A stretch of DNA of 64,000 bases from positions 992,001 through 1,056,000 of the forward strand of contig NZ_CP007129.1 of assembly GCF_000522985.1 (NCBI RefSeq). Reading direction: 5' to 3'. The notes beneath the pieces are model-generated. The model was given only the letters and a program-made list of their open reading frames with translations. It ran no database searches and was not told the DNA's origin. Both the position numbers and the translations under genes were made by a program. Below are positions 6,922-51,443 of this stretch, piece by piece (positions within the stretch are counted from its first letter, which is position 1; every line of letters begins with the position of its first letter). The DNA comes from Gemmatirosa kalamazoonensis. Lineage in GTDB: Bacteria > Gemmatimonadota > Gemmatimonadetes > Gemmatimonadales > Gemmatimonadaceae.

Positions 6922-8838
6922 TCACGGCCACCAGCGCACCCGCACGCCGGGCGGGAACGCGGTCGCCACGCCGGGCGTCACGCCGCGTCCCGACACGCTC
7001 AGCTCGCGCAGCCTCGGCAGCCGCGCGAGCGCCGCGACGCCCGCGTCGGTGAGCCCGTGGCACGTGTCGAACGTGACGCGCTCGAGCGAGTCCATGCCGG
7101 AGAGCAGCGCCGGCGTGCGGTCGGTGATCGTGGTGTAGCTGTTGAAGTAGTACGTCAGGTTCGGCAGCCGCGCGACGTGCTCCGTCGCCGCGTCCGTCGT
7201 GTCGCGGCAGTACATGAGAACGAGCGACTCCAGCCGCTCGCACCGCGCGACGTGCCGGTACCCGGCATCCGGCACGTCCATCGGCATGAGCTCGCGCAGC
7301 GCGGGGAAGTCGGGGAGCGCCGCGACGCCGGCATCGTCGACGTTGAGGCAGCTCACCGACAGCCCGCGCAGCGACGGGATGTTCGCGAGCGCCGCGAAGC
7401 CGCGCCGCCGCAGGTTGTGGCAGCGGCGCCCCCAGATGTACTCGATCGAACGCGACGCGCTCAGTGCGACGAAGCCGTCGTCCCCCGCGCTCGTGTCCTG
7501 CACGCCGAGGAAGCGCAGCCGCGGCATCGCGGCGATCGCCGGCATCCAGTCGTCCTTCGCGTCGACGCCGAGCCATCCGAGGTTCGGCAGATCCACGAGC
7601 GGGTCCATCGCCGCCGCCGTGATGGCGAGCCGCGCGTCGTCGACGTTGAGCCCGAACAGCCCGTCGAGCCCGCGCAGCCGGCCCATCCCCGCGTCGGTGA
7701 ACGGGCCGCGGAGCGCGAGGTGGTTCGGCGACGAGTCGTAGCTCACGAGCGCGAGCCGCACCTCGCCGCCGAGCCACGTCTTGAACGCCGGGATCTCGTG
7801 CAGCACCGGGATCCCCGCATCGGTCACCAGCTCGCCCGTCCGGAGCGTGCGCAGCGCGTCCATGCCGGCGAGCGCATGCAGCGCGCCGTCGCCGGTGCGC
7901 GTTCCGCCGAGGTTCACCTCGCGCAGCGCGCGGCAGTGCGCGAGCTGCGCCGCGCCGGCATCGGTGACGCGCGTCCACGCGAACGAGATCGACTCCAGCG
8001 CCGGCAGATCGCGCAGCACCGGCAGGCCGCGGTCGGTGACCGCCGTGCCCGAGAGATCGAGGTGCGTCAGACCCGGCAGCCGCGCGAGGTGGCGAACCCC
8101 CTCGTCGGTGAGCGCCTGCGAGCCGCCGAGTGCTAACGACGTCAGGCCTGGGATCCGGGCGACGTGGGCGAGCACCTCGTCGGTCATCTGCCCCTCCGCC
8201 ACGAGCCGCGCCTCCGGGTGCTCGGCCAGTGCGCGCAGCACCGTGTCCCACTCGCGCGCGACGGCGAGCGTCGCTGGGTCCTCGCCGTCGCCGCGCACCA
8301 CGCGCACGGGCCGCGTGGCGACGAGCGTCTGCGGCGACACCGTCGACGCGAACGCCGCGAGCTGCGCCCAGCTCGTGAAGCCGTGCTCTCGCGCCACGAG
8401 CCAGCGCGCGTCGTCGACCGTGATCTCCACGTCGCCGTCGGGCTCCGACGGACGCTTGCCGAGGTCGAGCTGCACGTAGCGGCGCATCGCCGGCCACGCG
8501 CGCCGGTGCCACGTGTGGCGGTAGAGCCGCTCCATCGCCTCGGGCGTGCCCGTGCGGTACGCGTCGAGCAGCGCGTCGGCCGCCGCCTCGTACTGCGCGA
8601 GCGGGCGTGCCGCCTCCATCGCTGCCTCCGACGACGCCTTCAGCGCGGTCCAGCCGTCGAAGCCCCGCTCGCGCGCCAGCGCGTGCTGCACGTCGCGGAG
8701 TGATGGGGACGCCGGTGCGTTAGGCACCGCGCGGTCGAGTCGGGCGCGCGCTTCGGGGTCGGCTCGGCGGAGCGCGGTGAGCCAGCGCTTCGCTTCCTTG
8801 CGGAGGCTCTCGAGGCCGCGGCGGGGCTGGTCGGACAT
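6922..8838 (-). CDS. Leucine-rich-repeat protein with ankyrin-type N-terminal leader
   Basis: Protein of 638 residues with no signal peptide. The N-terminal 140 residues carry the 'LRKEAKRWLTALR ... DVQHALARERGFDGWTALK' segment, which commonly precedes ankyrin or LRR repeats in soil bacteria, and a second degenerate copy ('AREHGFTSWAQLAAF'). From about residue 210 onward there are roughly 15 LRRs of the RNI/F-box type with the recurring pattern 'LTDAGV..LA.LP.L..L.L..' . I chose ATG 8838 because GGAGGAAGG sits seven bases upstream; an ATG at 8853 lies within that ribosome site. The role is probably protein-protein interaction; no enzymatic motif is seen. Confidence 0.8.
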   Translation of the reverse strand: MSDQPRRGLESLRKEAKRWLTALRRADPEARARLDRAVPNAPASPSLRDVQHALARERGFDGWTALKASSEAAMEAARPLAQYEAAADALLDAYRTGTPEAMERLYRHTWHRRAWPAMRRYVQLDLGKRPSEPDGDVEITVDDARWLVAREHGFTSWAQLAAFASTVSPQTLVATRPVRVVRGDGEDPATLAVAREWDTVLRALAEHPEARLVAEGQMTDEVLAHVARIPGLTSLALGGSQALTDEGVRHLARLPGLTHLDLSGTAVTDRGLPVLRDLPALESISFAWTRVTDAGAAQLAHCRALREVNLGGTRTGDGALHALAGMDALRTLRTGELVTDAGIPVLHEIPAFKTWLGGEVRLALVSYDSSPNHLALRGPFTDAGMGRLRGLDGLFGLNVDDARLAITAAAMDPLVDLPNLGWLGVDAKDDWMPAIAAMPRLRFLGVQDTSAGDDGFVALSASRSIEYIWGRRCHNLRRRGFAALANIPSLRGLSVSCLNVDDAGVAALPDFPALRELMPMDVPDAGYRHVARCERLESLVLMYCRDTTDAATEHVARLPNLTYYFNSYTTITDRTPALLSGMDSLERVTFDTCHGLTDAGVAALARLPRLRELSVSGRGVTPGVATAFPPGVRVRWWP

Positions 8839-9000
8839 GACACCTTCCTCCATGTCGCCCGGAGTCCGCTGAGCACGGGCAGGAAGAAGGGTGTGGCGGC
8901 GTGCCGTACCCGACTCGAGTGGGTGGGAGGATTCCCTTGCCGCGGACAGGAGGCGCCCCAGCGCGCGCTGCCCACACGCTGGCGCGCGTCGCGGCCGGCG

Positions 9001-9918
9001 TCAAGCCGCCCCCTCCTCGAGCAGCTTCACCAGCGCGTGCAGCGTCGCGTTCACCGGCGTCGGCACGCCTAACGCCGCGCCACGCGCCGCGACGTGGCCG
9101 TTGAGCGCGTCGATCTCGGTGCGCTTCCCGCGCGCCACGTCCTGCGCCGTCGACGACGTCGCGTCGGGCATGCCGTCGGCGAGGCGCAGCGCAGCATCCA
9201 CCAGGTCGACGTCGGGGAGCCGCACGCCGTCCGCCTGCGCGACCGCGACGAGCTCGGTCACCGCCGCGCGCATCACCGCGCGCGTCCCCTCGTACGCCGT
9301 GATGCGCGCGTAGCGGGCACGGGTCAGCGCCGAGATCGCGTTGTACGCGCAGTTCATCGCCAGCTTCGCCCACAGCTCGCCGATCACGTTGTCCGACACG
9401 CGGCACGGCACGTCGGCGCGCGCGAACAGCGCCGCGAGGTCGCGCGCGCGTGGCGACTCGCCGATCACGAGATCGCCGCGGCCGGTGTGGCGAACGCGTC
9501 CCGGCCCCGTCATCGCGGCGGCGACGTACACGACCACCGGCAGCGCCGCGATCCCCGCAGCGGCGCGCATGCGGTCCACGTTGTCCACGCCGTTCTGCAG
9601 ACTGAGCACGACCGCGCCGTCGCGGAGGTGCCGGGCGAGCGCGCGCGCCGCGTCCTCGGTGTCGCTCGTCTTCACGCACACCAGCACCACGTCGCACGCG
9701 CCGAGCACCGCGACGTCGTCGGTCGCCGCGGCGACGCGCACGCGCTCCGGCACGCCGCCGCGCTCCAGCATCAGCCCCTCGGCGGCGATGACGTCGACGT
9801 GCGCCGGACGGCCGACGAGCACCACGGGCGCGCCCGCGCGCGCGAGCATGCCGCCGTAGTAGCACCCCACCGCGCCGGCGCCGAGCACGCCGACGCGCGG
9901 CCACGGGTCGTCAGGCAT
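9001..9918 (-). CDS. panE: 2-dehydropantoate 2-reductase
   Basis: NADPH-dependent reduction of ketopantoate to pantoate in the pantothenate/CoA pathway, cytosolic. The 305-residue length is normal. The Rossmann motif GAGAVGCYYGG is near residue 13, 'VCVKTSDTE' near 82 and 'SLQNGVDN' near 105. The catalytic Lys lies in 'ELWAKLAMNCAYN', and the C-terminal signature is 'STAQDVARGKRTEIDALNG'. The protein ends with 'LVKLLEEGAA'. No other pantothenate genes are nearby. PanE-like proteins sometimes act on other 2-keto acids, so the substrate is inferred from the motifs. Confidence 0.88.
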   Translation of the reverse strand: MPDDPWPRVGVLGAGAVGCYYGGMLARAGAPVVLVGRPAHVDVIAAEGLMLERGGVPERVRVAAATDDVAVLGACDVVLVCVKTSDTEDAARALARHLRDGAVVLSLQNGVDNVDRMRAAAGIAALPVVVYVAAAMTGPGRVRHTGRGDLVIGESPRARDLAALFARADVPCRVSDNVIGELWAKLAMNCAYNAISALTRARYARITAYEGTRAVMRAAVTELVAVAQADGVRLPDVDLVDAALRLADGMPDATSSTAQDVARGKRTEIDALNGHVAARGAALGVPTPVNATLHALVKLLEEGAA

Positions 9919-44942: not shown

Positions 44943-46094
44943 TTAGGCGCGGCGGCGGCGGACGGCGCCGAGGACGAGCAGGCCGCCGGCGAGGAGTGCG
45001 AGCGACGCGGGCTCGGGGACGGCGCTGGTCGGCGTGATCGGCGTCTCGGGCACTTCTGGGGTGCCCGGTGTCCCGGGTGTCCCGGGTGTCCCGGGTGTCC
45101 CGGGTGTCCCCGGTGTGCCCGGAGTCCCTGGCGTGCCCGGGGTGCCCGGGGTGCCCGGGGTGCCCGGGGTGCCCGGAATGCCTGGAATGCCTGGCGTCCC
45201 CGGGATGCCTGGTGTCCCCGGGATGCCCGGCGTGCCGGGGATGCCCGGCGTGATCGGCGTTCCTGGGATCCCCGGCGTGCCAGGGACGCCAGGAGTGCCC
45301 GGAGTGCCAGGGGTGCCTGGAGTTTCCGGCGTCCCGGGAGTGCCGGGAGTGCCAGGAGTGCCAGGAGTGCCAGGAGTGCCAGGAGTGCCAGGAGTGCCAG
45401 GAGTGCCAGGAGTGCCAGGAGTGCCAGGAGTGCCAGGAGTGCCGGGGGTTCCTGGCGTGCCGGGTGTCCCGGGCGTGCCGGGTGTCTCCGGCGTACCGGG
45501 CGTCTCGGGCGTGCCTGGCGTGCCCGGAGTCCCGGGCGGGCTCGGGATCTCGGGGGTGCCAGGTGTCGTCGGCGTCGTCGGCGTCGTCGTGCCGATCGTG
45601 CCGCCCTCGATGCCACTGCCCTGCGTGCCGTTGCCCAGGACCGCCGCCGCGACGGCGCCGATGAGCAGGCCGCCGAACAGACCGCCGCGTCCGACCGACG
45701 GCGCGGCGAGCAGCGCGGGCGCCGGGATGGTGGGCGTGGGGAGCACCAGCTCGCCGAAGCCGGGCGTGATCATGAGTCCCGGGGCGACGACGGTGACCTC
45801 GCCGCACCGCTCCTTCACGATGCGCAGCGGACCCGGTTGGTCCTTCGCGATGCGCAGCCGCGGATCGCGCGCGGCGAGACGATACGCCTCGAGCTTCGCG
45901 TCGCCACGCGAGGTCGCGACGCGTCGCGGGCGGGCCGTGGCGACGCTCGCCGAGTCGGGACCGTGCGTGAACGGTCGCGCGATCGCGGAGTCTGTGGAGG
46001 TGCGCGGCACCGCGGTACACTGCGCGCGCCCGAGCTCCGGCACGACGGCCAGCGATACGACGCACAACGCGGCCAAGAGCTGCTTCTCGGACAT
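44943..46094 (-). CDS. PEP-CTERM protein with collagen-like Gly-Thr-Pro repeat
   Basis: Exported protein of 383 residues. Signal peptide ('[20 protein letters not shown]'), an N-terminal domain of about 130 residues, a Gly-rich hydrophobic hinge ('[18 protein letters not shown]'), then about 160 residues of Gly-Thr-Pro triplets interrupted by Glu-Thr-Pro or Gly-Ile-Pro. The C-terminal sorting signal is '[19 protein letters not shown]' plus RRRR-A, the PEP-CTERM motif for exosortase. No exosortase gene is in the window. ATG 46094 was chosen because it opens the signal peptide. The stop TAA is within a GCCTAAC word. The Gly-X-Y pattern suggests a triple helix or rod exposed on the cell surface. 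Confidence 0.85.
45060..45540. repeat. 9-bp tandem repeat array encoding the collagen-like region
   Basis: About 50 tandem 9-base units on the plus strand: GTCCCGGGT at 45070-45110, GTGCCCGGG around 45125-45170, GTGCCAGGA about ten times at 45350-45440, each encoding Gly-Thr-Pro on the minus strand. Homogeneous sub-blocks indicate recent slippage expansion. Confidence 0.95.
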
Positions 46095-46275
46095 CTGCTG
46101 CTTCACCCGGGGACACGGACGCTCGCTACGTCCCCGACAGTTACTCAAGTACGGTGCCAGCAGTGGCTGAGCCGCCTGAGTAGTCGAGCTCGTCCGCGCC
46201 GCGGCGACTGGCGCGTGACGTGCGACCCCCGGCAGCACAGACGATCTCCACTCAACGGGCGGGGGCCTAACGATC

Positions 46276-46404
46276 ATGAGCAAGCTCCTACGCGGGCTCG
46301 CCGCGGGCTACGGTGCGAAGAAGCTCGGCGGCGGCTGCTTCAGCACGATCCTCATCTTCATCCTGCTCTGGTGGCTGCTCGGCCACTTCCGGTTGTTCCA
46401 GTGA
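46276..46404 (+). CDS. Small single-pass membrane protein (42 residues)
   Basis: ATG 46276 to TGA 46404. '[20 protein letters not shown]' is followed by a hydrophobic helix '[18 protein letters not shown]' and a short tail. The codon use and the amphipathic-then-hydrophobic plan support a real small protein. It is 17 bases upstream of the methyltransferase gene and probably co-transcribed. No named family. Confidence 0.6.
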
Positions 46405-48008: not shown

Positions 48009-48803
48009 ATGGACGCACCGGGCGCACGGCTCGCGTTCGAGGGTTTCGGCTTCCGCTACGCGATCGACCTCGACGCGCCGACGGAGTTCGCTCAGCTGCG
48101 GCAGCATCTGCTGCCCGGATCCGTCCCGGTGATCGGCGACGAACCCGCCGCTCGCTACGCCATCACGCGTGCGTGCGCGGAGCGCCGGTTCACACTGGCG
48201 TGCGACGGCGAGATCCTGCTCGCCGATTCGGCGCCGCCGGACGTGCTGCACGCGTTCCGGTCGCACGTGCGGCTGCGGATGGCGCTCGCCGCCGGACGCT
48301 GGGCGTTCGTGCACGCGGGGGTCGTCGGGTGGGGCGACCGCGTGGTCGTCGCGGTGGGGCGCAGCTTCAGTGGGAAGACGCGGCTGGTCGCCGCGCTGCT
48401 CCGGTGTGGCGCCACGTACTACTCCGACGAGTACGCGGCGGTCGACGAGCGCGGGCTCGTGCATCCGTTCCCGCAGCCGCTGTCGGTCCGGGCCGATGGC
48501 GAGCGTGTCGGAGCGCTGCGGGATCCCGAGGCGTTAGGCGCGGTCGTAGGGAGCGAGCCCCGACGGACGGCTCTGCTGGTCGACGTCCACCACGAGCCCG
48601 GCGCACGGTGGGACGTACGACCGCTCGCGAGCGTCGATGTGGTGCTGACGATGATCGCGCACACGGTCGCGGCCCAGGCGAGGCCCGGCCACTCGCTCGC
48701 GGTGCTCGCCCGCGCCGCTGCGGGGGCCCGGGGCATCATCGGCGTGCGCGGCGAAGCAGTGGACGCGGCCGAGGCGATCGTTCGCTTGCTGGAGGTCGGG
48801 TGA
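48009..48803 (+). CDS. HprK-related kinase of peptide-modification clusters
   Basis: Protein of 264 residues related to HPr kinase/phosphorylase. A P-loop 'GRSFSGKTRL' (117-126) is preceded by 'FVHAGVVGWGDRVVVAV' and followed by 'YYSDEYAAVDERGLVHPFPQ', the segment with the acidic general-base region. No PTS genes are near, so HPr is unlikely to be its substrate. Homologues of this shape occur in lasso-peptide and other RiPP gene clusters, where they phosphorylate or process precursors. ATG 48009 was chosen. The stop is 20 bases before the PqqD gene, so they are in one operon. Confidence 0.8.
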   Translation: MDAPGARLAFEGFGFRYAIDLDAPTEFAQLRQHLLPGSVPVIGDEPAARYAITRACAERRFTLACDGEILLADSAPPDVLHAFRSHVRLRMALAAGRWAFVHAGVVGWGDRVVVAVGRSFSGKTRLVAALLRCGATYYSDEYAAVDERGLVHPFPQPLSVRADGERVGALRDPEALGAVVGSEPRRTALLVDVHHEPGARWDVRPLASVDVVLTMIAHTVAAQARPGHSLAVLARAAAGARGIIGVRGEAVDAAEAIVRLLEVG

Positions 48804-48823
48804 CCATCAGACGGGAGGACGCC

Positions 48824-49360
48824 ATGATACCGCTCGCGCGAACGCAGGAGCTGCACGTCGAACACGTCGACGCCGGATGCGTGGTGTACGACCTGCGCAC
48901 CGACGCGGTGCACAGCCTCAACGCGGTGACGACGTTCGTGTGGGAGCACTGCACGGGATCGAGCACGGTGGACGCGATCGCGGCCGAGCTGGGGCGCGAG
49001 CTGGAGCGCGAGGACGGCGTGACGGAGCTGCGCGCGCTGGTGTGGCTGGCGATCGCGGAGCTGGAGCGCGCGCAGCTCATGGAGCGCGCCGTGCGCACGC
49101 CGATCGTTAGGCAGGTCGTCGACCCGATCTCGCGCCGCCGCGCGACGATGAAGATGGGGCGCGCGGCGCTGCTGCTGGGCGGCATCCTGCCCGCGGTGAA
49201 GTCGATCGTCGCGCCGACGCCGGCGGCGGCCGACTCGACGGGCGTGGTCACCGGGGCCTGCACGGATCTGCTGCGCGGCTGCGACATCAACACCTGCACC
49301 GGCACGTGCAAGCGGACGTTCGACTCGGCCGGAAACTTCATCGGCTGCGACTGCGTCTGA
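48824..49360 (+). CDS. PqqD-domain protein with internal Tat-like signal and six-cysteine tail
   Basis: Protein of 178 residues in three parts. Residues 1-98 are a PqqD/RRE winged helix: 'VYDLRTDAVHSLNAVTTFVWEH', 'AIAAELGREL', 'LVWLAIAELERAQLME' (in part). Residues 103-137 form an unusual internal signal: [12 protein letters not shown], a hydrophobic stretch 'AALLLGGILPAVKSIVAP' and an Ala-rich cleavage-like site 'PAAADS'. Residues 138-178 hold six Cys (146, 153, 158, 162, 175, 177), including C-D-C at the end. It starts at ATG 48824 behind GGGAGG; GTG 48800 overlapping the hprK-like stop is possible. It could be a recognition domain fused to its own substrate peptide. Confidence 0.78.
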   Translation: MIPLARTQELHVEHVDAGCVVYDLRTDAVHSLNAVTTFVWEHCTGSSTVDAIAAELGRELEREDGVTELRALVWLAIAELERAQLMERAVRTPIVRQVVDPISRRRATMKMGRAALLLGGILPAVKSIVAPTPAAADSTGVVTGACTDLLRGCDINTCTGTCKRTFDSAGNFIGCDCV

Positions 49361-49376
49361 CGCGACCGGAGGCGAC

Positions 49377-50300
49377 ATGCCGGAGCTCTACATCGTCGGC
49401 GCGGTGCTCGCGTACACGGGGCTGATCAAGGCGCTCGACACGCGTCAGGCCGCGAAGCTGGTGGTGTCGCACTTCGCCGTGCCGTGCCACCGGACGCGGC
49501 TCGTCACCGCGCTCGTGATCGGCGTCGAGTGCGCGCTCGGCGCGGCGCTGCTGCTCGGTGTCGTCCCACGAGTGACGATCCCGGCGGCGGCGCTGTTACT
49601 CGTCGGCGCGACCGCGCTGTCGCTGCGCGGTGCGCGCGAAGGACGCACGGAGAGCTGCGGCTGCTACGGCAGCGCGTTCGTGCCGACGTGGGTCAGCATC
49701 GGGCTGAATGCAGGCTACCTGCTGCTACTGGGCTCCGCATGGCGGCGTCTTCCCGCGACCGCGTCCACGCCGCTGTGGGCCGTGGGAATCGCCGCCACCA
49801 TCGGTCTCGCATCGGGGCTGACGGGCTGGATCCGTGACCGTCGGCCCATCGTCGACACGGCGCCGCTGCGCGTGGGGAAGCGCTGGCGGCGCCGGTGGGC
49901 CCCGGAGGCGCCGGTCGCGCTGGAGCACGGCGACTACCTGATCGCGTTCGTCCGTCCGCGGTGCGCGCACTGCGCGACGTGGGTGCCGTTCCTCAACATC
50001 GAACATGCACGCGACGGATCCAGCCGCGTGATCGGCATTATCCCGGGGACCGCCGCGGACGTCGCGCAGTTCGTCGCCGAGCACCACGTCGCGTTCCCGG
50101 TGCTGCACATGAAGCCGCACGTGTTCGACCTGGTGACCGACGTGACGCCGACGGCCGTCGGGGTTCGCGACGGGCGCATCGTGGCGATGTGGCGCGGCGA
50201 TCTTCCGGACTCACTGATCGAACAGGCGCGCACGTACTACACGGAGCTCTTCGACGCGTCGACGCCGACAGTCATGCGGGAGGCCGGCGCGGCGACGTGA
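49377..50300 (+). CDS. MauE/DoxX-like membrane protein fused to thioredoxin-fold domain
   Basis: Protein of 307 residues. Residues 1-155 have four TM helices with 'TESCGCYGSAF' (Cys 94 and 96), as in MauE, which supports disulfide formation during methylamine-dehydrogenase maturation. Residues 165-300 form a thioredoxin-like domain with active site C-A-H-C (196-199) and a cis-Pro-region 'DVTPTAVGVRDGRIVAM'. It follows the Cys-tailed PqqD protein by 16 bases. The likely role is forming or isomerising disulfides in that tail outside the cytoplasm (inference). Confidence 0.82.
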   Translation: MPELYIVGAVLAYTGLIKALDTRQAAKLVVSHFAVPCHRTRLVTALVIGVECALGAALLLGVVPRVTIPAAALLLVGATALSLRGAREGRTESCGCYGSAFVPTWVSIGLNAGYLLLLGSAWRRLPATASTPLWAVGIAATIGLASGLTGWIRDRRPIVDTAPLRVGKRWRRRWAPEAPVALEHGDYLIAFVRPRCAHCATWVPFLNIEHARDGSSRVIGIIPGTAADVAQFVAEHHVAFPVLHMKPHVFDLVTDVTPTAVGVRDGRIVAMWRGDLPDSLIEQARTYYTELFDASTPTVMREAGAAT

Positions 50301-50303
50301 TGC

Positions 50304-51443
50304 CTAACGGGGCGGCGGCATCACGCGACGCCGTGCCAATCGCCAGAGGGGACGAAGCGGCCGAAGCAGGCGGTACGCGGTGGCGACGCCGGCGAAGACC
50401 CACGGCCGCCGCGGCCCGTCGACGTCCAGCCCGGCGCGCACGAGCGCGAGGCTGTACCACGCCCGATCGCGGATCCGCTCGCGCGAGTCCAGCAGGATGC
50501 GCCGCGCTGCGGCACCGACTGGTGCCGCGGCGTCGGCGACGAGCCGGGCGCGCACGTCGCCGGCCAGCCGCCGCGCCGCCGCGTCCCGCTCGATGAGCGA
50601 CGCGATCGATGCCGGAACGGACGCGTCCAGGAGCTCGATCGCGAGCCGCAGTCCGACGTGGACGATGCGCGACGCGCCGAGCGCCGCGGCCCACCGCAGC
50701 ATCGCGTCCCACGCGAGTGATTCGCGGCCGACGAGCTCCGCGACGTCGCACGTCCATCGGAGCTGGGACCAGCAGTGAGCGGTGGCATGCACGCAGACGA
50801 TCGGCAGCAGCTGCTCCGGTGCGAGCGTGTCGACGCGGCCGTCGGCGATGGCGAGTGGGCGGACGTGTGGGAGCAGCTCGTCGGCGTCGAGCGGGAGCCG
50901 GAAGCTCTCGTGCGTGAAGCGGCGGTGAAGATCGACGCCGGGGCCCGGTGGCCGCACGAACGAGTGCTCGTTCTCCAGCCGCAGCCGCGAGCGAAAGCCG
51001 AGCGCGAGCAGCGCGCGCTTCGCCGCGAGATAGTCGGCCTCGCGCACGAGCAGGTCGAGGTCGTTGAACTCGCGCACGCCGACGTCGCCGTACGCGACGG
51101 CCGCCAGCGTCGGCCCCTTGTACGCGATCATCCGGATCCCATCCGCCCGCAGCGCGCCGGCGATCTCGAGGAGCGTCGCGGCCGCGGTCTCGTTCGCGCG
51201 CGCGACGGCGCGCGTGCGGGCGGCGAGCGACCGCAGCACGTCGCGCGGCACGCACGACCGGCAGACGGATCGCAGGCTGCGGCATACGAGCGGCGTGACC
51301 TTGTGCCGGCGCGCGAGCGCGTCGAGCGCCGCCCAATCGATCCCGGCGCGGGCCAGCCGCCGGACGTGCCGGGCGCCCGGTGGGTCGACGCGCGTCCGCG
51401 CGCAGCGGAGCAGCAGCTCGACCTCCGGGCTGGCGCCGGTCAT
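50304..51443 (-). CDS. Nucleotidyltransferase-fold family protein (NTP_transf_5-like)
   Basis: Protein of 379 residues. The core 'GIRMIAYKGPTLAAVAYGD' and 'VREFNDLDLLVREADYLAAKRAL' (in part) gives the G-S/D-x-D nucleotidyltransferase pattern (Asp-Leu-Asp), and 'HRRFTHESF' follows. Proteins like this accompany PqqD and HprK-like genes in peptide-modification clusters. It is convergent with the MauE-thioredoxin gene, with stops three bases apart. It starts at ATG 51443 and its stop TAG is within GCCTAAC. Its reaction is unknown; possibly adenylylation or nucleotide transfer to the peptide. Confidence 0.78.
   Translation of the reverse strand: MTGASPEVELLLRCARTRVDPPGARHVRRLARAGIDWAALDALARRHKVTPLVCRSLRSVCRSCVPRDVLRSLAARTRAVARANETAAATLLEIAGALRADGIRMIAYKGPTLAAVAYGDVGVREFNDLDLLVREADYLAAKRALLALGFRSRLRLENEHSFVRPPGPGVDLHRRFTHESFRLPLDADELLPHVRPLAIADGRVDTLAPEQLLPIVCVHATAHCWSQLRWTCDVAELVGRESLAWDAMLRWAAALGASRIVHVGLRLAIELLDASVPASIASLIERDAAARRLAGDVRARLVADAAAPVGAAARRILLDSRERIRDRAWYSLALVRAGLDVDGPRRPWVFAGVATAYRLLRPLRPLWRLARRRVMPPPR

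Follow-up and report, generated by a model that had tools for sequence, protein, structure and literature searches.

Known systems and the cassette

Linear Polyphosphorylated Peptides (LPP), described in 2026 and reported as confined to Bacillota (PMC13381572), are the closest described counterpart of the system treated here. This is a four-gene cassette at 48009-51443 of a 64,000-nucleotide stretch of the Gemmatirosa kalamazoonensis genome (contig NZ_CP007129.1, positions 992,001 to 1,056,000; the whole stretch is called the window), whose second gene encodes P0002, a protein joining a PqqD-type recognition element (RRE) of ribosomally synthesized and post-translationally modified peptides (RiPPs), an internal signal resembling those for twin-arginine translocation (Tat), and a short Cys-rich tail. 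As in LPP loci, an HprK-like kinase, an RRE and an NTP transferase occur together without a lasso cyclase, the conserved precursor leader ends at a Ser that is followed by a hypervariable C-terminus and preceded 15 residues earlier by an invariant Pro, and polysaccharide genes are often nearby. However, the LPP RRE is a discrete protein, whereas here RRE and core form one protein of 178 amino acids (aa); the LPP leader carries YxxP ([Y/W]xxP), whereas residue P-3 is here mostly L, V, A or I, and G in the window; and LPPs use an MsbA-like pump and an SpI-like peptidase, whereas here there is a Tat-like signal, a disulfide-type core, and neither peptidase nor MsbA-like exporter in the cassette or its immediate flanks (relatives were not searched with a peptidase profile). 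We class the cassette as working in the manner of an LPP without being one, since the features that define LPPs, a discrete RRE, an SpI peptidase and an exporter, were looked for and not found.

Phosphorylated lasso peptides of the paeninodin and pseudomycoidin type share with the cassette an HprK-like kinase (PadeK, ThcoK, PsmK), a PsmN-type nucleotidyltransferase and a PqqD-type B1 protein, but they are phosphorylated on a C-terminal Ser and have a B2 peptidase and a macrolactam synthetase. The HPr-rel-A system has the same pair of kinase (TIGR04352, HprK_rel_A) and PqqD protein (TIGR04353), and both window proteins match its models weakly; however, kinase (E=2.1e-7, 30.3 bits, cut-off 200) and PqqD domain (23 bits, cut-off 35) fall under the curated thresholds, and the 74-position PqqD model spans neither signal nor Cys tail. 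SynChlorMet, with kinase-like ScmC and PqqD-type ScmD, is a radical S-adenosylmethionine (SAM) cassette. Its ScmD model was weakly matched by 41 of 50 P0002 homologues, but a radical-SAM-like signature was found near just one of 95 loci here. An ATP-binding cassette (ABC) signature likewise occurred in one of the 95 loci, and an asparagine-synthetase-like open reading frame (ORF) near one (L045) and none beside the cassette; a lasso, radical SAM or ABC-export system was rejected on these counts, all made with crude signature patterns. Finally, bufferins and other RiPPs of multinuclear non-heme iron-dependent oxidative enzymes (MNIO) also have Cys-rich precursors with a signal peptide and an RRE-type partner proposed to keep the signal covered until the precursor has been modified, but their signal is N-terminal and of the general secretory (Sec) type, their RRE acts in trans (DUF2063 partner) and their chemistry is that of MNIO (PMC12452194).

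Both LPP (PMC13381572) and phosphorylated lasso peptides (PMC9266682) already have the modifying core of the cassette, and MNIO RiPPs (PMC12452194) already have precursors that bear a signal. The novelty would lie in three features, an RRE in cis, a signal inside the protein and a core rich in disulfides, and these would make the cassette an undescribed variant of a known peptide natural product class; no earlier account of an RRE-precursor fusion, internal signal and disulfide-rich core turned up among open-access papers, in a search that took in neither subscription papers nor most preprints. The first-pass annotation, made from the sequence alone, had called the arrangement novel, which holds for these three features but not for the cyclase-free set of kinase, RRE and nucleotidyltransferase, already known as LPP. 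Our reading is that the cassette probably makes a secreted, modified, disulfide-rich mini-protein, and that P0002 is its precursor, with a two-part leader made of RRE and Tat-like signal.

Layout of the cassette

The cassette was confirmed as three co-directional genes plus one convergent gene, with the following features.

48009..48803, + strand: HprK-like peptide kinase (P0001), 264 aa; weak HprK_rel_A match and catalytic motifs
48824..49360, + strand: putative RRE(PqqD)-signal-core precursor protein (P0002), 178 aa; PF05402 E=1.9e-7, ~70 full-length homologues
48824..49084, + strand: RRE/PqqD domain of P0002, residues 1-87; Foldseek matches to lasso B1 and PqqD structures
49130..49234, + strand: internal Tat-like signal of P0002, residues 103-137 (SRR ... 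P123 ... APTPAAAD); RR conservation
49235..49237, + strand: Ser138, predicted phosphorylation site at the leader/core junction; spacing to the invariant Pro
49235..49357, + strand: predicted core of P0002, a 41-residue six-Cys tail, residues 138-178; even Cys number, hairpin
49377..50300, + strand: MauE/DoxX-type membrane domain plus thioredoxin domain (CAHC), 307 aa; PF07291 E=3.6e-16
50304..51443, - strand (ATG at 51443, stop at 50304): NTP_transf_5 nucleotidyltransferase-like protein, 379 aa; PF14907 E=2.8e-57

Gaps of 20 bp separate the kinase gene from the PqqD fusion and 16 bp the latter from the MauE-thioredoxin gene, and a further 3 bp lie between that gene and the convergent one. The genome itself (7.5 Mb, four contigs; the window lies on contig C3) has no other strong copy of P0002. 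Coordinates, Pfam and motifs bore out the earlier description of four genes, with a PqqD domain, internal signal and six-Cys tail in one protein and MauE and C-A-H-C thioredoxin parts in another. Of the profile matches it had called for, those to PqqD, MauE and NTP_transf_5 were clear in Pfam, whereas the kinase had no match in the Pfam scan of the window proteins and only the weak NCBIfam match given above.

A conserved leader with exchangeable tails

Searching the phylum with P0002 recovered full-length homologues, and alignment A1 widened the set within Gemmatimonadota, where 19 of 395 genomes had strong family matches; P0002 as a single query against genome contigs gave no match, and no match was found on plasmids. 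A scan of reference genomes with kinase alignment A2 recovered 79 loci, 52 of which also had a PqqD-family match, nearly all in the full RRE-signal-tail layout. Full-length homologues numbered about 70 across about ten phyla, by record title Acidobacteriota, Gemmatimonadota, Chloroflexota, Cyanobacteria, Armatimonadota/Abditibacteriota, Planctomycetota, Myxococcales and other former Deltaproteobacteria, Alphaproteobacteria, Calditrichota and Rokubacteria. Since the layout of RRE, RR signal, AxA, Ser/Thr and tail repeats throughout this set, the architecture of P0002 is not a product of chance.

The homologues aligned from their start to one Ser/Thr, and past that residue there was no alignment. 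In 64 of 70 homologues an invariant Pro (Px[VI]) preceded the Ser/Thr by exactly 15 residues, compared to just 2-6 of 70 for each other distance from 10 to 17; in several exceptions the anchor pattern had picked the wrong Pro. In tandem copies from the cyanobacteria Okeania and Richelia the leaders were 97% and 92% identical and the tails 20% and 23%. Thus, the conserved leader and divergent tails of these copies point to one leader with exchangeable cores.

The tail also co-occurred with the kinase. Both were present in 15 of 199 Acidobacteriota genomes, with kinase only in one, tail only in none and neither in 183 (p=1e-21), and in 13 of 395 Gemmatimonadota genomes, with tail only in six, kinase only in none and neither in 376 (p=4e-20; kinase presence at E<=1e-50); these p values ignore shared ancestry, and the pairing nonetheless repeats across phyla. 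Three of the six tail-only genomes (G244, G246, G276) have a divergent HprK-like gene; in G226 the PqqD-tail gene is broken and the kinase reduced to a fragment, the tail gene of G126 is incomplete, either broken or cut, and in G287 no kinase could be detected. In some genomes a single kinase goes with three to five tail genes, part of them on other contigs, and one Acidobacteriota genome has five tail genes and one kinase on different contigs.

These data bear on a different role for P0002, that of a membrane-anchored RRE adaptor whose RR segment would stay uncleaved and serve as the anchor, whose tail would sense or dock in the periplasm, and beside which the kinase would have another substrate. 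Such an adaptor would suit the facts that RREs usually work in trans, that signals are seldom placed inside a protein behind a folded domain and that some tails are short and Cys-free. However, a sensor or docking domain would not be expected to differ wholly between near-identical tandem copies as these tails do, the kinase family goes with the tail family, and no other conserved small precursor gene was found among the recurrent neighbour families, for which only ORFs of at least 80 aa were clustered. We consider the adaptor unlikely.

At L174 (G589 contig C5, 1-9000), three tandem PqqD-tail genes encode different Cys-rich cores, and the sole kinase match of the genome is on another contig. 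In some genomes of the same class as the window, the family is found between rpoC and rpsL/rpsG/fusA/tuf in an otherwise conserved ribosomal-protein region, as a kinase and PqqD-tail pair at L036 (G240) and as the broken PqqD-tail gene alone at L044 (G226).

The junction Ser/Thr and the HprK-like kinase

Under the precursor reading, the Ser/Thr at the end of the leader would be the residue modified. No other core position is conserved when tails with and without Cys are compared. In the LPP precursor LppA, P-13 and the phosphorylated S3 are likewise 15 residues apart, and LppK phosphorylates this Ser3 of the LppA core (PMC13381572); in pseudomycoidin, PsmK and then PsmN act on a Ser, adding phosphate and then hexose (PMC9266682). 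By analogy with these precedents, the HprK-like kinase would act on Ser138, and the NTP_transf_5 protein on its phosphate; Ser138 is thus a likely kinase target, where the first-pass annotation had assigned none. We rejected a lipoprotein reading of the ASC/ATC motif; many homologues have no Cys beside the Ser/Thr.

P0001 retains the motifs HAGVV, GRSFSGKT and SDE, with the catalytic His, Walker-A Lys, Asp and Asp/Glu residues present. HprK_rel_A was matched by all eight aligned kinase relatives (best 1.5e-17), and among 91 relatives GK[ST] and the SD motif were found in 90 and the preceding His in 88, with Glu in place of the second catalytic Asp in most. A comparison of the kinase with Protein Data Bank sequences returned nothing but P-loop noise. 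The kinase gene mostly lay directly upstream of the PqqD-tail gene on the same strand (47 of 54), and an NTP_transf_5 family gene was near 57 of 91 kinase loci. In the L043 pair (7160-8134; 8138-9004), the kinase has GES instead of GKS in Walker A, which possibly makes it inactive, and the partner tail is Lys-rich without Cys.

The same residue could have another purpose: the secreted Cys-rich core may be real and the Ser/Thr serve signal-peptidase cleavage, with kinase and NTP_transf_5 protein modifying a different residue or serving exopolysaccharide chemistry. The Ser/Thr does adjoin AxA, exopolysaccharide-type genes lie near some loci, and Thr occupies 11 sites, but the single strict spacing to Pro equals that for the phosphorylated Ser3 in LppA, the Ser/Thr alone is conserved in the core whether or not the tail has Cys, and no kinase was found where the tail family is missing. 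A role confined to cleavage is therefore quite improbable in our judgement.

Cys-rich tails and the MauE-thioredoxin protein

Returning to the tail as the candidate product, we counted Cys residues in 69 tails: the number was even in 57 (mostly 6 or 8), odd in one and zero in 11, and among the 58 Cys-bearing tails the excess of even numbers gave p=2e-16 against equal odds, uncorrected for relatedness. Eight more tails obtained later all had an even number (manual count), and one further, broken gene (L084) had three Cys. Knottin-like (C-C-CC-C-C) spacing was present in 19 homologue tails. The AlphaFold2 model of L095 has a confident small Cys-rich core (predicted local distance difference test, pLDDT, ~90), 25 residues of which superposed in Foldseek on solved cystine-knot peptides at 0.4-0.8 A. 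The window tail has no CC pattern, and only a C-terminal beta hairpin at 162-177 was predicted for it (pLDDT ~80-86). Matches of tails to venom-peptide families and structures were read as shared cystine-knot spacing rather than as kinship. Behind the same leader, L037, L079 and L080 have Cys-free tails that are Asn/Gln/Gly-rich or very short, so the core need not be disulfide-rich.

In the neighbouring protein, the MauE part carries CGCYG and the thioredoxin part C-A-H-C, motifs that would fit disulfide formation. Of 91 kinase loci, 7 had such a gene nearby, in Gemmatimonadota and Cyanobacteria; all seven had Cys tails, a pattern resting on numbers too small to be telling. The earlier proposal that MauE-thioredoxin oxidises the tail has partial support; present at 7 loci in two phyla, the protein cannot be a general requirement, and we rejected it as an obligatory partner. 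That the core is instead a metal-binding peptide, as in bufferins, with thiols binding metal rather than forming disulfides, is very improbable: Cys-rich secreted RiPPs with signal peptides are known as metal chelators (PMC12452194), but disulfides are favoured by strictly even Cys numbers, by knottin spacing and by the match of the L095 model to cystine-knot peptides, and the recurrent neighbour families included no recognisable MNIO-type enzyme (no MNIO profile search was made).

The RRE domain and the internal signal

The RRE/PqqD domain of P0002 matched Pfam at 31.7 bits against 23.4, and 50 of 50 homologues matched too. Its structure was predicted with high confidence, and the best Foldseek matches were the lasso B1 proteins TbiB1 and TfuB1, followed by PqqD (probability 1.00); homologue L095 gave VIA Z 9.1-9.4 with lasso B1 structures, with a root-mean-square deviation of 2.4-2.6 over 84-87 residues. 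An RR pair was present in every homologue, and the columns of R104/R105 were invariant in the 50-member alignment A3. Features of Tat substrates (twin-arginine motif, hydrophobic stretch, AxA) are present, 48 of 63 homologues fitted a relaxed Tat consensus, and TAT_signal models gave weak matches in a few; RR and AxA together suggest Tat export rather than Sec. For internal Tat signals, actinobacterial Rieske proteins provide a precedent. In the AlphaFold2 model of L095, residues P+2 to P+6 of the signal form a beta strand; where LppA is bound to LppB in their crystal structure, the leader strand covers P+1 to P+6 (residues -12 to -7) (PMC13381572). From model and crystal together we infer that the RRE may hold its own signal as a leader; AlphaFold2 may have learned the strand from known complexes.

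Proposed mechanism

The conserved leader, hypervariable core, even Cys numbers, exchange of cores behind near-identical leaders and nearly constant co-occurrence with the kinase make the tail a well-supported candidate for the product, as the first-pass annotation had proposed. What it had named as contrary evidence, an invariant tail on a stand-alone PqqD protein without the neighbours, was put to the test and is contradicted. Comparison of sequences supports the leader/core organisation, the single conserved Ser/Thr, the even Cys numbers and the kinase co-occurrence; we infer cis binding, phosphorylation, the NTP_transf_5 reaction, Tat over Sec, cleavage and MauE-thioredoxin oxidation. In the cytoplasm, the RRE would take up the P123-V125 region of its own signal as an extra beta strand, present Ser138 and delay export. 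The HprK-like kinase would then phosphorylate Ser138, and the NTP_transf_5 protein may extend the phosphate, for example with a sugar or nucleotide. Subsequently, the signal would drive export and be cut near AxA, so that the RRE stays inside and the ~41-residue core is freed outside, where its six Cys would form disulfides, aided in this genome by the MauE-thioredoxin protein.

Several observations weigh against this scheme. Eleven tails lack Cys altogether, and the MauE-thioredoxin gene is rare in the family. Thr stands at the conserved site in 11 of 70 homologues, and LppK did not accept S3T (PMC13381572). Furthermore, 27 of 79 kinase loci had no PqqD-tail inside the retrieved stretch, six tail-bearing Gemmatimonadota genomes had no kinase of this type at E<=1e-50, and P0002 itself has an unusual RR region (SRRRATMKM) and a signal modelled with low confidence (pLDDT 52-63).

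For the family as a whole we advance a broader view that falls just short of probable: a RiPP family of about ten phyla would unite recognition element, export signal and core in one polypeptide, the cis RRE would delay export until the junction Ser/Thr is modified, and the product would be a knottin-like mini-protein tagged with phosphate or sugar-phosphate. If true, phyla for which few products are known (Acidobacteriota, Gemmatimonadota, Chloroflexota) would gain a family of disulfide-rich peptides bearing a phosphate tag. How signal-bearing RiPP precursors escape early export, a question raised for bufferins (PMC12452194), would become testable, a cis RRE over its own signal being a simple answer. 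RiPP searches seek short precursors beside an RRE, or cyclases; the product here would sit in the tail of a protein annotated simply as PqqD, and such clusters would thus be overlooked.

Other neighbouring genes

At three Gemmatimonadota loci (L038, L045, L083), a second, divergent HprK-like subtype with an SDD motif occupies the kinase position beside NTP_transf_5, MauE-thioredoxin and PqqD-tail genes, and exopolysaccharide-type genes surround L038 and L045. In the window, a protein with collagen-like G-T-P repeats and a PEP-CTERM sorting motif is encoded at 44946-46283 (- strand), ~1.7 kb from the kinase gene.

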